In this document: positions 13,447-18,173 of the stretch, piece after piece
How positions within the stretch are numbered: the first letter of the stretch is position 1
Layout of the letters: every line of letters starts with the position of its first letter
Assembly (NCBI RefSeq): GCF_022808775.1
Contig: NZ_JAKZLA010000002.1
Location: 372,001-436,000 of the forward strand
Source of the DNA: Geothrix terrae
Lineage (GTDB): Bacteria; Acidobacteriota; Holophagae; Holophagales; Holophagaceae
DNA: 64,000 bases
Direction: 5' to 3'
Translations under genes and position numbers: made by a program
Notes under the pieces: generated by a model
The model's input: only the letters and a program-made list of their open reading frames with translations
Databases searched by the model: none
Told to the model about the DNA's origin: nothing

Positions 13447-13542
13447 GATGTTCAGCGTCTGTCGGACCGCCATCCGGAATCTGTTGGCACCTTGACGTTC
13501 CGGCCTCCGGGGGTCCAGCATGGGACACCTTCGGACCCCGCC

Positions 13543-13617
13543 ATGACGTCCCGCTTCCATCGCTATTATTGGTTCCCGCGCACGGATCGTGCGTGGCACG
13601 GCGAGGGTCCAGCCTGA
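13543..13617 (+). CDS. Leader peptide of the aroF attenuator
   Basis: A frame of 24 codons, MTSRFHRYYWFPRTDRAW and six more residues, ending at TGA 13615-13617. It has Phe5, then consecutive Tyr-Tyr-Trp-Phe at 13564-13575 and Trp18, an extreme density of the three end products of the pathway that DAHP synthase opens. The codons just after YYWF form the first stem of a set of alternative RNA hairpins ending in a terminator. No strong Shine-Dalgarno is seen (only GGAC before the ATG), which weakens the case slightly. Confidence 0.75.
   Translation: MTSRFHRYYWFPRTDRAWHGEGPA
13576..13596 (+). promoter_or_regulatory. Attenuator hairpin 1:2 inside the leader peptide
   Basis: Arms 13576-13584 and 13588-13596 pair (core CGCACG-GAT-CGTGCG, with a G-U and two further GC pairs). 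The segment CGGATCG at 13583-13589 can alternatively pair with CGATCCG at 13644-13650, the left arm of the terminator, giving an 8-bp antiterminator. A ribosome stalled on the Tyr-Tyr-Trp-Phe codons would cover the left side and release the alternative. Confidence 0.65.
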
Positions 13618-13640
13618 TACCTGGAACATCCCCATGACCA

Positions 13641-13673
13641 CCCCGATCCGTTCTCCGGATCGGGGTTTTTCTT
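13641..13673 (+). terminator. Intrinsic terminator (attenuator) upstream of aroF
   Basis: Arms CCCCGATCCG (13641-13650) and CGGATCGGGG (13656-13665) pair perfectly over 10 bp with a five-base loop and are followed by TTTTTCTTT. It stands between the leader peptide and the aroF start 18 bases later, so in its default state it would stop transcription before aroF. Confidence 0.88.
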
Positions 13674-13690
13674 TATCCCGGAAGGCCCCC

Positions 13691-14758
13691 ATGACCCACC
13701 AGGCGCTCGAGAACCTCAACATCGATTCGTTCGACCGGATGCCTTCGCCGGCGGAGATCCACGCGGCCCTGCCCGTGCCCGACACCGTGGCGGAGACTGT
13801 GGCCGGCGGCCGCCGGGACCTCCAGCGCATCCTCGCCCGGGAGGATCCCCGCCTCATGGTGGTGGTGGGTCCCTGCAGCATCCACGACCCCGTGGCGGGC
13901 CTCGACTACGCGCGGCGGCTCAAGGCCCTCTCGGACGAAGTCGCGGACACGCTGCTGCTGGTCATGCGGGTCTACTTCGAGAAGCCCCGCACGTCCACGG
14001 GCTGGAAGGGCTTCATCAACGATCCCCGCATGGACGATTCCTTCCACATCGAGGAGGGCATGCGGAAGGCCCGGGAGTTCCTGCTCCGCATCGGAGAGAT
14101 CGGCCTGCCGGCGGCCACCGAGGCGCTGGACCCCAACACGCCCCAGTACATCGGCGACCTCATCAGCTGGACGGCCATCGGTGCCCGGACCTCCGAATCC
14201 CAGACCCACCGGGAGATGTCCAGCGGCCTGTCCACCCCCGTGGGCTTCAAGAACGCCACAGACGGCGACCTGGCCGCCGCCGTGAACGCCATCCTCTCCG
14301 CCTCCCGCCCCCACAGCTTCCTGGGTCTGAACGACCAGGGCTCGGCGGCCATCGTGCGCACCAAGGGGAATCCCCACGGGCATCTCGTCCTGCGCGGCGG
14401 GGGCGGCCGCCCCAACTACGACACCGTCAGCATCGCCCTGGCCGAAGGCGCCCTCCGCAAGGCCGGACTGCCCGGGAACATCGTGGTGGACTGCTCCCAT
14501 GCCAACAGCCACAAGAACCCCCGCCTCCAGCCCCTGGTCCTCCAGGACTGCGCCCACCAGATCCGGCGGGGCAATGCGTCCATCGTCGGAGTCATGGTGG
14601 AGAGCTTCCTCGAGGAGGGCAGCCAGCCCATCCCCGCGGACCTGTCCACCCTCCGCTACGGCTGCTCGGTGACCGATGCGTGTCTGGGCTGGGACGACAC
14701 CGCCGCCATGCTCCGGGAGACCCGGGATCTGCTGAAGGATGTGTTGTCCAAGCGCTGA
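13691..14758 (+). CDS. aroF: 3-deoxy-7-phosphoheptulonate (DAHP) synthase, class I
   Basis: 355 residues of the E. coli AroF/G/H type: VVVGPCSIHDP, RVYFEKPRTSTGWKG, the SES-THRE region (ARTSESQTHREMSSGL), FLGLNDQGSAAIV and VDCSHANSHKNP. It condenses phosphoenolpyruvate and erythrose-4-phosphate as the first step of the shikimate pathway in the cytosol. The N-terminal extension that binds feedback amino acids is present in the usual length. I chose the ATG at 13691; upstream in-frame codons run through the terminator. Expression is probably controlled by attenuation through the leader peptide at 13543. A 67-bp relic of a second copy lies at 18107. Confidence 0.95.
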   Translation: MTHQALENLNIDSFDRMPSPAEIHAALPVPDTVAETVAGGRRDLQRILAREDPRLMVVVGPCSIHDPVAGLDYARRLKALSDEVADTLLLVMRVYFEKPRTSTGWKGFINDPRMDDSFHIEEGMRKAREFLLRIGEIGLPAATEALDPNTPQYIGDLISWTAIGARTSESQTHREMSSGLSTPVGFKNATDGDLAAAVNAILSASRPHSFLGLNDQGSAAIVRTKGNPHGHLVLRGGGGRPNYDTVSIALAEGALRKAGLPGNIVVDCSHANSHKNPRLQPLVLQDCAHQIRRGNASIVGVMVESFLEEGSQPIPADLSTLRYGCSVTDACLGWDDTAAMLRETRDLLKDVLSKR

Positions 14759-14990: not shown

Positions 14991-17873
14991 CTAGGGCCTG
15001 TAGATCTCGGTGACCAGATCGCCACCAGGGCCGAAAGCAACCATGATGTCTCCGTTGGGGAAACGTATGGAACTGTGGCCTGCCCGTGGCAAGGCCAGGT
15101 TATCCGCCGGCGTCCAGACCTGCGTGGCGGGATCGTAGAGCTCCGCGCTGCTGAGGATCGAGTTGGAAGAATTCCTACCTCCCACCACCAGAACCTTGCC
15201 GTTCGCGAGGAGGTCAGCCGAATGGCCTCTGCGCGCCGATCCCATGGCGGAAGTCGGGAGCCAGCCGTTCGTCGTGGGATCGAATACTTCAGCACTGTCC
15301 AAGGTTCCGGAAGCCCCAGTCCCGCCTGTCACGAGTACCCGCCCATCCGACAGCAGCGTGGCCATGTGGCCCCGGCGGGCCGTTCCGAGGGCGCCCACCG
15401 CGGTCCAGGTCTCTCCAGCAGGATCGTAGAGTTCAGCGTTGGCGATTGGATCGGAGAAGCTCCCACCACCGACCACCAACACCTTCCCGGTGGAAAGCAG
15501 GGTGGAGGTGTGGCCGACACGGGCGATTCCGAGGCTGGTGGTGGGTCGCCAAGTTGAAGTGGCGGGATCGTAGAGTTCGGCGCTCTCCGATGCGATGCCT
15601 CCGACGAAACCTCCCACGACCAGGACCTTCCCATTGGGGAGCAGCGTGGCAGTCTGTTGGCCTCGCGTAGTATTTAAACTGCCGACCGGGGTCCAGGACC
15701 CATTGGCAGGGTCGTAGAACTCAGCGCTGGTGAAGCCTGGCTGCGAGAGGGCGTCACCGCCTACCGCCAGAACTTTCCCATCCGAGAGCAAAGTGGCTGT
15801 GTGACCTCTGCGGGTGGTGCCCATGTTCTTCGCGGGCGTCCAGTATCCAGTCGCAGGGGCGGCGATTTCCGCATCGTCAAGGATTCCTCGCGGGAAGTTC
15901 TCTCCTCCCGCGACCAGCGCCTGCCCGTTCGCGAGAAGGGTTGCTGTGTGGAACTCGCGGGGGGCCATCGGTTGCCCAGCCAGGGGCTTCCAAGTCCCGT
16001 TTCCCGAGTCGTAGATTTCGGAACTGGCGATGTCATAGAAGTACAGGGACCCGCGGCCGCCGGTCACCAGGACGGTCCCGTCCTGGAGCAGGGTGGCTGT
16101 ATGGCCGAACCGCCCCGTCCCCAGGTTGCCGGCGGGTGTCCAGGTCGATGCCGCGGGGTCGAAGATGGCCGTGCTGAAGAGGAAATTGTCGTGATATTCG
16201 CCACCCGCCATCAGCACCCGCCCATCCGGGAGGAGGGTGGTCGTATGGTGGCGGCGTTCTTCCCCCATGGTGGCCGTGAGAGCCCAGGTCCCGGTCCCGG
16301 GATCGTAGATTTCAGCGCTGGAGGTTCCCGAGATGAGGATTGAACCTCCCGTCACGAGGACCTTCCCATCCGCGAGCAGGGTGGCCGCGCACTCGTTCCG
16401 CGCTTGGTTCAGGCTTCCGGCGGAAACCCAGGTGCCGTCCGCCGGGTCGTAGAGCTCCGTGACAGGGTTGTCCTCGGAACCTCCGGCCACCAGGACCTTC
16501 CCGTCCACCAACCGCGTGGCCGTGTGGAAGGTCCGCGCGATCCCCATGCTGCCGGTGGGTGTCCAGGTTCCAGTTGCAGGGTCGTAGACTTCCGCGGTGG
16601 CCGTATGACCGCCTGCCGCGAGTACCTTCCCGTCCGGGAGCAGCGTGGCCGTGCAGGCGCTCCGAGAGGTTCCCGGGTTGCCCGTGCGATGCCAGGTTCC
16701 TGAGGCGGGGTCGTAGAGCTCGGCCGTGCCATTGCCTGCCACCAGCACCTGGCCGGTGCGGAGGAGGGTGGAGGTGTGCCAGTCCCGCGGATTCGCCATG
16801 CTGCCGACGAGGTTCCAATGGCCCGTCTCGGGATCGTAGACCTCGGCGCTGTTCCCGCCGCCGCCTGTCACCAGCACGCGGCCACTGGGGAGGCGCGTGG
16901 CCTGGCAGGGGAACCTCTTGACCGAAGCACCTCCGTTCTTGACCAGCCAGGTTCCCGTCTGGATGGTGACCTTCCGAGTGGAGGCGATCGCATCCCCGGC
17001 CTGGTTCTGGACATCCACCTTGAGGTGGAAGGTGCCCACCGATGGGCCCGCCGAGAAGCTGATCACATGGGTACCCTGCCCGGCGGTGATGCTGGCCGTG
17101 CCGGTGCTGGAGACGATGGTCCAGAGGTAGGTCATCCCATGCTGGTGGGGCACGCTGGCCTTCATCCAGGCATCGCCGGGGTGGGTTTTCAAGGGCAGAG
17201 CCAATTCGGCGTTGGGGGCGGGCACGACGGAGGCGGAGGCGCTCCCGGAGCCGCTGCCGCCATAGGCAGTGACGACCACCGTGGCGGTCAGGGTGGTGCC
17301 GGCCACGCCGGCGGTGAAGGTGATGGCGGGGCTTCCCTGGCCTGAGGTGAGCGTCCCGCCGGTCAAGGTCCAGGCATAGACGGCCTTCGGCCCCCAGTCC
17401 GGGGTGCTCGCCACGAGCCCCGCCTTTCCCTCGGTGACGAAGGGAGCCAGGTACACCACCGGGTTCTCGGGCGGGGCCTCGGCCTTCACCGTCAGTCGCG
17501 CATATCGACTCTGGACCTCCGACTGGCCGGAGGTCAGGCGCACGAAGAATCTGGAACCACTGTCGCTCAGCTTCAGGGGAGGCGTCGTGTACTCGGGCGA
17601 TGTCGCCCCAGGGATCAGGCGGGTGCGCTCCCCGGTTGGGTCACAGTACCACTGGTAGCGGAGTTCCCCGCTCCCGGCGGTGGCCACCACGGAGAAGGTC
17701 GCCGTCTGCCCCGGGCCCACCTTCTGGTCCGTGGGTTGGGTGAGGACGATGATCCCGACCGGAGCCTCATCGCTCCATAGGGCGCCACCCGCCATCCCCA
17801 GTGCCAGGAGTACGGGCACACAAAGGAGGCGAATGAGCGTCGCCGCGCATCGACTGATTCTTGACCAAACCAT
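14991..17873 (-). CDS. Large exported kelch-repeat protein
   Basis: 960 residues. A signal peptide (LLCVPVLLALGMAGGALW) is followed by an Ig-like domain (about 50-145; QPTDQKVGPGQTATFSVVAT), a second region with PKD/Ig character, and then thirteen full and one partial kelch-type repeats of about 45-50 residues. The repeat pattern is R.GHTATLL.DGKVLVVGG, a variable loop, AELYDPATGTW. Fourteen blades could form two seven-bladed propellers. Such proteins act in adhesion or carbohydrate contacts, but no activity can be assigned. The start MVWSRISRC at 17871-17873 is preceded by AGGGGG. A 15-bp perfect palindrome lies about 62 bases upstream. The gene is inserted between aroF and an aroF relic. 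Confidence 0.85.
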   Translation of the reverse strand: MVWSRISRCAATLIRLLCVPVLLALGMAGGALWSDEAPVGIIVLTQPTDQKVGPGQTATFSVVATAGSGELRYQWYCDPTGERTRLIPGATSPEYTTPPLKLSDSGSRFFVRLTSGQSEVQSRYARLTVKAEAPPENPVVYLAPFVTEGKAGLVASTPDWGPKAVYAWTLTGGTLTSGQGSPAITFTAGVAGTTLTATVVVTAYGGSGSGSASASVVPAPNAELALPLKTHPGDAWMKASVPHQHGMTYLWTIVSSTGTASITAGQGTHVISFSAGPSVGTFHLKVDVQNQAGDAIASTRKVTIQTGTWLVKNGGASVKRFPCQATRLPSGRVLVTGGGGNSAEVYDPETGHWNLVGSMANPRDWHTSTLLRTGQVLVAGNGTAELYDPASGTWHRTGNPGTSRSACTATLLPDGKVLAAGGHTATAEVYDPATGTWTPTGSMGIARTFHTATRLVDGKVLVAGGSEDNPVTELYDPADGTWVSAGSLNQARNECAATLLADGKVLVTGGSILISGTSSAEIYDPGTGTWALTATMGEERRHHTTTLLPDGRVLMAGGEYHDNFLFSTAIFDPAASTWTPAGNLGTGRFGHTATLLQDGTVLVTGGRGSLYFYDIASSEIYDSGNGTWKPLAGQPMAPREFHTATLLANGQALVAGGENFPRGILDDAEIAAPATGYWTPAKNMGTTRRGHTATLLSDGKVLAVGGDALSQPGFTSAEFYDPANGSWTPVGSLNTTRGQQTATLLPNGKVLVVGGFVGGIASESAELYDPATSTWRPTTSLGIARVGHTSTLLSTGKVLVVGGGSFSDPIANAELYDPAGETWTAVGALGTARRGHMATLLSDGRVLVTGGTGASGTLDSAEVFDPTTNGWLPTSAMGSARRGHSADLLANGKVLVVGGRNSSNSILSSAELYDPATQVWTPADNLALPRAGHSSIRFPNGDIMVAFGPGGDLVTEIYRP

Positions 17874-17934
17874 TGGATACCCCCTGTGAATGGAAGTGGT
17901 TGGCCGCCGCCATGAGGGCCACTGGCCCTCTCCC

Positions 17935-17949
17935 ATGATCAGTGATCAT
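17935..17949. promoter_or_regulatory. Perfect 15-bp palindrome upstream of the kelch gene
   Basis: ATGATCAGTGATCAT is palindromic around a central G and lies 62 bases before the kelch-protein start in an AT-rich stretch (about 17935-18005) that otherwise holds no gene. It is a candidate operator; the cognate regulator is not known. Confidence 0.4.
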
Positions 17950-18106: not shown

Positions 18107-18173
18107 GCCGGCTGTCCGGGAACGTCGTGGTGGACTGTTCCCGTGCTAACAGCCACAGGAACCCCCGCCTCCT
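18107..18173 (+). pseudogene. Relic fragment of a second DAHP synthase gene
   Basis: About 67 bases match aroF 14462-14529 at close to 90 percent. After a single-base deletion near the left end the differences are nearly all transitions. The translated piece reads GNVVVDCSRANSHRNPRL against GNIVVDCSHANSHKNPRL. No other part of aroF is recognisable on either side; the chemoreceptor stop follows 24 bases later. It indicates that a second aroF stood here, or that recombination around aroF brought in the kelch gene. The rest of 17950-18196 shows no gene. Confidence 0.75.

Follow-up and report, generated by a model that had tools for sequence, protein, structure and literature searches.

A putative Tyr-Trp leader-peptide attenuator before aroF in Geothrix, with related modules before other amino acid genes of the Holophagaceae

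The short leader in front of aroF in the Geothrix genome studied here is, with a probability that we put at about 0.9 from the sequence evidence, a ribosome-mediated transcription attenuator that reads mainly charged tRNA-Tyr and tRNA-Trp. It was found in the window, that is, the whole stretch of 64,000 nucleotides that was analysed, which comes from a member of the Geothrix group (Holophagaceae, Acidobacteriota). The controlled gene (13691..14758, + strand) encodes a class I DAHP synthase (PF00793, 267 bits; TIGR00034 aroFGH, 458 bits) whose best solved relatives are the Tyr-sensitive DAHP synthases 6AGM/6AGL, with 419 bits, the Phe-sensitive ones reaching 371. Named AroF matches with 93-95% identity belong to Geothrix sp. 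SG200, G. fermentans and G. oryzisoli.

A 24-codon frame carrying Tyr-Tyr-Trp-Phe before aroF had been predicted from the letters of the window, and it is present with every coordinate correct: the leader ORF (13543..13617, + strand) runs from ATG 13543 to TGA 13615-13617 and encodes MTSRFHRYYWFPRTDRAWHGEGPA. A short ORF with codons for the pathway products therefore exists, its translation being a prediction; the Shine-Dalgarno sequence is weak. The likely promoter, as read from the sequence (13492..13521, + strand), consists of TTGACG (13492-13497), an 18-nt spacer and CAGCAT (13516-13521). This candidate scores below the threshold of our consensus scan, and a TTGAC-N18-CAGGAT-like spacing also lies upstream of the leaders of most relatives. 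The transcription start was assumed to be near 13528. Four consecutive aromatic residues appear in 1 of the 233 short ORFs of both window strands, precisely the leader ORF with a terminator after it.

Directly after the aromatic codons, and inside the leader ORF, lies stem 1, the anti-antiterminator (13576-13584/13588-13596, + strand; CCGCGCACG-GAT-CGTGCGTGG, with one G-U). According to pair counts, its inner six pairs are 96.9% paired across 39 aroF/asnB modules. Between the leader and the gene there is an intrinsic terminator (13641..13674, + strand), conserved in the 39 modules, whose arms CCCCGATCCG (13641-13650) and CGGATCGGGG (13656-13665) are followed by the T run TTTTTCTTT (13666-13674); 98.7% of the cells of its stem are paired. 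The segment CGGATCG (13583-13589) is complementary to CGATCCG (13644-13650), and the positions first proposed for stem 1, for this pairing and for the 10-bp terminator were all confirmed on the sequence. The antiterminator extends beyond these 7 bp, since GTGG (13593-13596) pairs with CCAC (13638-13641) and further inner pairs are added. Its 5' arm, CGGATCG...GTGG (13583..13596, + strand), was delimited from the fold and the pair counts in the 39 modules, and its 3' arm, CCAC..CGATCCG (13638..13650, + strand), overlaps the terminator left arm. Once the RNA is freed from 13583 to the end of the terminator left arm, one long imperfect hairpin is formed in 39/39 modules, with energies of -25 to -33.5 kcal/mol. 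The named antiterminator pairs are formed in 97.4% of the cells of these modules, compared with 20-52% when they are slid by 1-3 columns.

Conserved aromatic codons accompanied by compensatory stem changes had been put forward as the signature to look for in relatives. The codons are conserved, as detailed below, whereas true compensatory change in the aroF/asnB antiterminator is limited to one pair, for which G-C, G-U and A-U are all seen and A-C never. In a swapped-arm test with eight representatives of different genes, 4/40320 pairings of 5' and 3' arms equalled the matched one, itself included, a figure to be taken as a guide because the eight include related modules; the arms change together where the sequences are strongly different, which supports the proposed antiterminator pairing.

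With these elements, the promoter, the stalling, the kinetic trapping and the in vivo response of aroF would combine as follows. Transcription would begin about 15 nt upstream of the leader ATG. When Tyr and Trp are plentiful, the ribosome would pass Tyr8-Tyr9-Trp10 and reach the stop codon; with no stall, stem 1 (13576-13596) would sequester the antiterminator 5' arm, the terminator hairpin (13641-13665) would fold and RNA polymerase would halt near 13670, within the T run. Under a shortage of Tyr-tRNA or Trp-tRNA, the ribosome would pause at codons 8-10 and cover the 5' arm of stem 1, such that the freed CGGATCG...GTGG (13583-13596) could pair with CCAC..CGATCCG (13638-13650) before the terminator right arm is made, and aroF would be transcribed.

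We modelled this switch with ribosome masks, taking the E. coli distance of about 15 nt between the first base of the P-site codon and the leading edge. In the absence of a ribosome, stem 1 wins (0.57-0.92) and the antiterminator has a probability of 0.07-0.43 while the terminator right arm emerges. With a modelled stall that has Tyr8, Tyr9 or Trp10 in the A site, the antiterminator arm stays free, stem 1 is either broken or outcompeted, and the antiterminator probability rises to about 1.0 while the right arm emerges; in silico, then, a stall at the sensor codons frees an antiterminator that excludes the terminator. The predicted sensor is accordingly TAT TAT TGG (Tyr8, Tyr9 and Trp10; 13564..13572, + strand), on the strength of these stalls and of the conserved register. 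The second Trp of the leader (codon 18, 13594-13596) sits within stem 1; it is not plausible as a sensor because a modelled stall there covers the whole antiterminator arm and yields no antiterminator. Once complete, the terminator beats every other fold at equilibrium, whatever the state and even with a stalled ribosome; therefore, antitermination must be kinetic, a kind of decision that is usual for attenuators. The conserved register, the exclusive folds and the mask model, all of them drawn from sequence, thus uphold the original prediction of a trp/pheA-type logic.

The aroF leader, hairpin and terminator are kept together in 17 genomes of the Geothrix group, the window genome counted. 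Among cultured strains, G. fermentans DSM 14018 and G. oryzisoli retain the element. Conservation of the leader frame in relatives, the lack of which would have refuted the prediction, was found, and it is this conservation that takes the leader beyond chance. With codons numbered backwards from the hairpin's Asp/Asn codon, codon -6 is Tyr, always as TAT, in 15/15 distinct aroF leaders, and codon -5 is Trp in 14/15. Phe directly follows the Tyr-Tyr-Trp triplet in only 5/15, while codon 5 (-10) is Phe in 13/15, with the rare TTT used in six of them.

Reading of all three aromatic amino acids by a single peptide, as originally proposed, is therefore supported for Tyr and Trp and hardly for the Phe of the Tyr-Tyr-Trp-Phe run, where a modelled stall at Phe11 masks part of the antiterminator arm and lets its probability fall from 0.55 to 0.10; that Phe probably adds nothing. 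A Phe input through codon 5 is possible given its presence in 13/15 leaders, six as TTT, and Phe may add to the response in this way: a stall at Phe5 also permits the antiterminator in the equilibrium model, and the corresponding position of the asnB leaders is commonly Asn (17/22 at -10). On the other hand, a ribosome at Phe5 leaves the whole of stem 1 uncovered, and stem 1 is made first; Phe also has an attenuator of its own, in front of pheA and the adjoining class II DAHP synthase. We regard a switch that reads all three amino acids as doubtful, although worth keeping in mind. As to the preferred Tyr-Trp reading, we infer that control of DAHP synthesis is divided by end product at the RNA level, with aroF under Tyr/Trp, the pheA-DAHP synthase unit under Phe and trpE under Trp.

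The choice of synonyms in the leaders agrees with a sensing role. TAT accounts for 32/253 Tyr codons (13%) in the long ORFs of the window. The ratio TAT:TAC is 26:3 in aroF leaders vs 32:221 in those ORFs, AAT:AAC is 56:33 in asnB leaders vs 34:256, and TTT:TTC is 18:13 in pheA-type leaders vs 17:416; relatives are non-independent samples, so Fisher p-values on such counts overstate the rare-codon case, and in this genome by itself the rare-codon preference is modest (Tyr 0.016, Asn 0.07, Phe 0.009). The enrichment of the rare synonym is strong for Tyr, Asn and Phe and mild for Pro.

The element has decayed in two more genomes (L021 and L024) and is lost in three (L012, L013 and L014) whose AroF is 90% identical; these losses and degenerate versions indicate that it is dispensable. 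Upstream of aroF in L021 the terminator is retained and the Tyr-Trp codons and the hairpin are gone. In L012-L014, a small ORF (MRNFYLSPSGKPRP in L013/L014) lies directly before aroF, with a stop codon that overlaps the aroF start codon.

Such losses in a few relatives could fit a fixed terminator next to a chance or constitutive ORF, which would damp aroF or make a small RNA without sensing any amino acid. Terminators and short ORFs do arise by chance: a scan of 3 kb gave 3 terminator candidates, the one before aroF being the best, against an average of 1.8 in shuffles, so the hairpin alone is unremarkable. However, the SOD-like gene upstream of aroF is on the opposite strand and divergent, and the terminator therefore does not end that gene; moreover, a fixed terminator leaves unexplained the register of the sensor codons, the rare synonyms and the codons matched to each gene in the paralogues described next. 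We consider it very improbable.

A DNA search with the aroF leader picked up another copy in this genome (C1:473977-474070, L002); it precedes asnB, has the leader MTFSSLRTNRNFNNPLPRANRAWAGEGLT with Asn codons and is conserved across several Holophagaceae genera. From sequence comparison, the same RNA layout with other sensor codons recurs in this genome in front of no fewer than five further genes or operons for amino acids. Besides asnB, these are pheA, with Phe codons in MTASRAFFFSFRTSGARVGGV (C8:190188-190103, minus strand; L278, L361), a gene whose end runs into the start of a class II DAHP synthase gene; trpE, with Trp-Trp-Trp in MTLSFPTLRQGFLQGAWWWRAGSDGSLCEA (C1:400673; L360, L362) and the terminator CCCGACC-TTCC-GGTCGGG; proB, with Pro codons in MFTVTTFNPRPSHPITGRPAGGL (C7:11728-11825; L264); and proC, with Pro codons in MILIPAIHPRPSTLRAGGSRMIG (C8:53530-53445, minus strand; L247). 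The cognate residue dominates each class, with means of 3.6 Asn for asnB, 4.1 Phe for pheA, 4.9 Pro for proB and 3.4 Pro for proC. In the asnB paralogue, Asn is at -6 in 22/22 distinct leaders, and AAT in 23/24. The other class II DAHP synthase of the genome (C12) and its relatives showed no attenuator in their upstream regions.

These modules were collected with a covariance model (R1) built on the aroF/asnB module, which matches 55/77 Holophagaceae genomes at E 0.1 or better and whose weaker hits are attenuators with other codons. A pattern search for terminators in the genome added proB and pheA, and two further models (R2 and R3) completed the set; since both drew in part on R1 hits, the fact that they cross-detect aroF and asnB counts as support but not as independent evidence. 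Of 396 sampled genomes of the phylum, the aroF/asnB model hits 26, all Holophagaceae, with no match in the approximately 350 sampled genomes of the phylum outside that family. Two weak hits in the own genome (C7:7781 and C11:51586) were set aside as chance, and a hit at carA (L242 and L243) was rejected for lack of a convincing leader. Among relatives, Asn-rich leaders precede an asparagine synthetase A-like (AsnRS-like) gene, below the curated cut-off (L218, L222, L225), and Phe-Tyr leaders precede class II DAHP synthases (L230, L237).

Alternative terminator and antiterminator folds are also common to ligand- or tRNA-binding riboswitches (T-box-like) and to protein-bound attenuators, in which the ORF would be incidental. 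The Rfam search gave chance-level hits only, with no family at gathering score, and thus no membership of the T-box or another catalogued riboswitch class; in addition, the layout is common to genes for different amino acids, the consistent difference among them being the codon set of the ORF. Such a sensor is extremely unlikely in our opinion. We likewise give hardly any credence to an additional role of the leader peptide in trans, like that suggested for Sinorhizobium peTrpL. Both aroF and asnB leaders conserve a C-terminal RADRAWxGxG, as such a function might require, but this is explained by the same bases coding for the hairpin and the antiterminator, and the C-terminus of the peptide differs where the RNA arms differ (pheA, proB, proC and trpE).

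The aroF and asnB modules would be paralogues of one origin. We find it fairly probable, on balance, that a lineage-specific chassis was duplicated and its sensor codons swapped, giving rise to a Holophagaceae network that reads Tyr/Trp, Phe, Trp, Asn, Pro and possibly Gln. In the module tree, one branch with 98/98 support splits the aroF set from the Asn set; as the tree is unrooted, it leaves the direction of copying undecided. Several genera have Asn modules, whereas aroF modules are confined to the Geothrix-group genus, so the simplest history would be that the asnB module was copied to aroF and its codons swapped. The element is absent from more distant aroF copies within the Holophagaceae. 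Homologues of aroF outside the family, mainly from Betaproteobacteria, other Proteobacteria and Myxococcota, showed no comparable aromatic leader-terminator unit, except for weak, chance-like combinations in a few, and for that reason they were rejected as the source of the leader.

In the trp and pheA leaders of E. coli, whose features are well established, codons for the end product lie in a leader ORF, and an anti-antiterminator, an antiterminator and a terminator are mutually exclusive; the Geothrix arrangement is alike in these respects. Unlike those leaders, however, it has stem 1 and the antiterminator 5' arm both inside the leader ORF, its stop codon falls in the antiterminator loop, it would read two amino acids of the pathway before the first enzyme of that pathway, and its layout is common to several unlinked genes for other amino acids. 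Ribosome stalling at an aromatic-codon leader before a DAHP synthase has been reported for aroR-aroF of C. glutamicum (Neshat et al., 2014, in PMC11802643), and its Phe-Tyr-Phe peptide AroR is reported there to respond to Phe and not to Tyr. The Geothrix leaders do not carry that motif; they conserve Tyr-Trp, and in a different phylum. The uORFC-13-1 motif of Acholeplasma also combines a short upstream ORF and an intrinsic terminator before aroF, as in Geothrix, but with Phe codons (a U run), and it is limited to Acholeplasma and environmental sequences (PMC8632094). For E. coli aroF-tyrA, attenuation was proposed by Camakaris et al. (1980), as cited in PMC8632094 and PMC2659441, and the entry in the latter gives aroF as an attenuator sensing Tyr-tRNA (PMC2659441); Tyr-dependent control of aroF is thus shared with Geothrix, whereas the E. 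coli case is a hypothesis and its 5' UTR is different.

In Actinobacteria, as predicted here for Geothrix, a single genome has leader-peptide attenuators in front of several genes for amino acids; the systems described are for Trp, Leu, Ile/Val, Ala, Met and Thr, with none listed for Asn or Pro (PMC1262725, PMC8079986). Naville and Gautheret (2010) remarked that hardly any predicted attenuator of Acidobacteria had been given a function, and that leader-peptide systems had by then been shown only in Proteobacteria and Actinobacteria (PMC2965389). Our searches of open-licence papers, in which an absence is no proof, returned nothing relevant on leaders coded for Asn or Pro or on attenuators of Acidobacteria or Geothrix. 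As far as these searches reach, the aroF attenuator would be undescribed in Acidobacteriota, just as the original prediction had it, with DAHP-synthase attenuators known in C. glutamicum and Acholeplasma. What appears to be new is the lineage, the Tyr-Trp reading, the location of the two rival arms within the leader reading frame and a common chassis whose codons have been exchanged.

In this family of Acidobacteriota, leader-peptide attenuation seems to control an entire set of genes for amino acids, and the DAHP synthases seem to be split between a switch that reads Tyr/Trp and one that reads Phe. If true, attenuators coded for Asn (asnB and the asnA-like gene) and for Pro (proB and proC) would represent sensor types with no earlier description. 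The shared chassis makes a testable claim about evolution, namely that swapping one or two codons should change the amino acid sensed, and the near-fixed rare codon at -6 (TAT or AAT) is a natural data set on codon choice in attenuators.

Some minor observations accompany these results. In one genome (L227, 342-438), a Gln-rich leader, MRSSSRQQQQNPRPPANREGTREGRG, with the same hairpin and terminator layout precedes an Amt ammonium transporter and is possibly a Gln-sensing attenuator. At another locus (L223, 346-430, on the reverse strand of the locus), the Asn-type leader MSLVHPQIKRNTNLPRVDRAWAG and a terminator precede a 492-aa frame with no Pfam match. In the proB, proC and pheA leaders (L247, L264, L278 and relatives), AGC follows the sensor codons and produces a recurrent CCTAGC or TTTAGC; CTAG is usually rare in bacterial genomes. 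Finally, a fragment at 18107-18172 of the window matches the 3' part of aroF (67 nt, 90% identical) about 3.4 kb downstream of it, separated from the gene by a kelch-repeat-like gene (14991-17936, minus strand), and the relative L048 carries a 99-residue copy of the aroF 3' fragment, which suggests that the 3' end of aroF was the site of an insertion or duplication.
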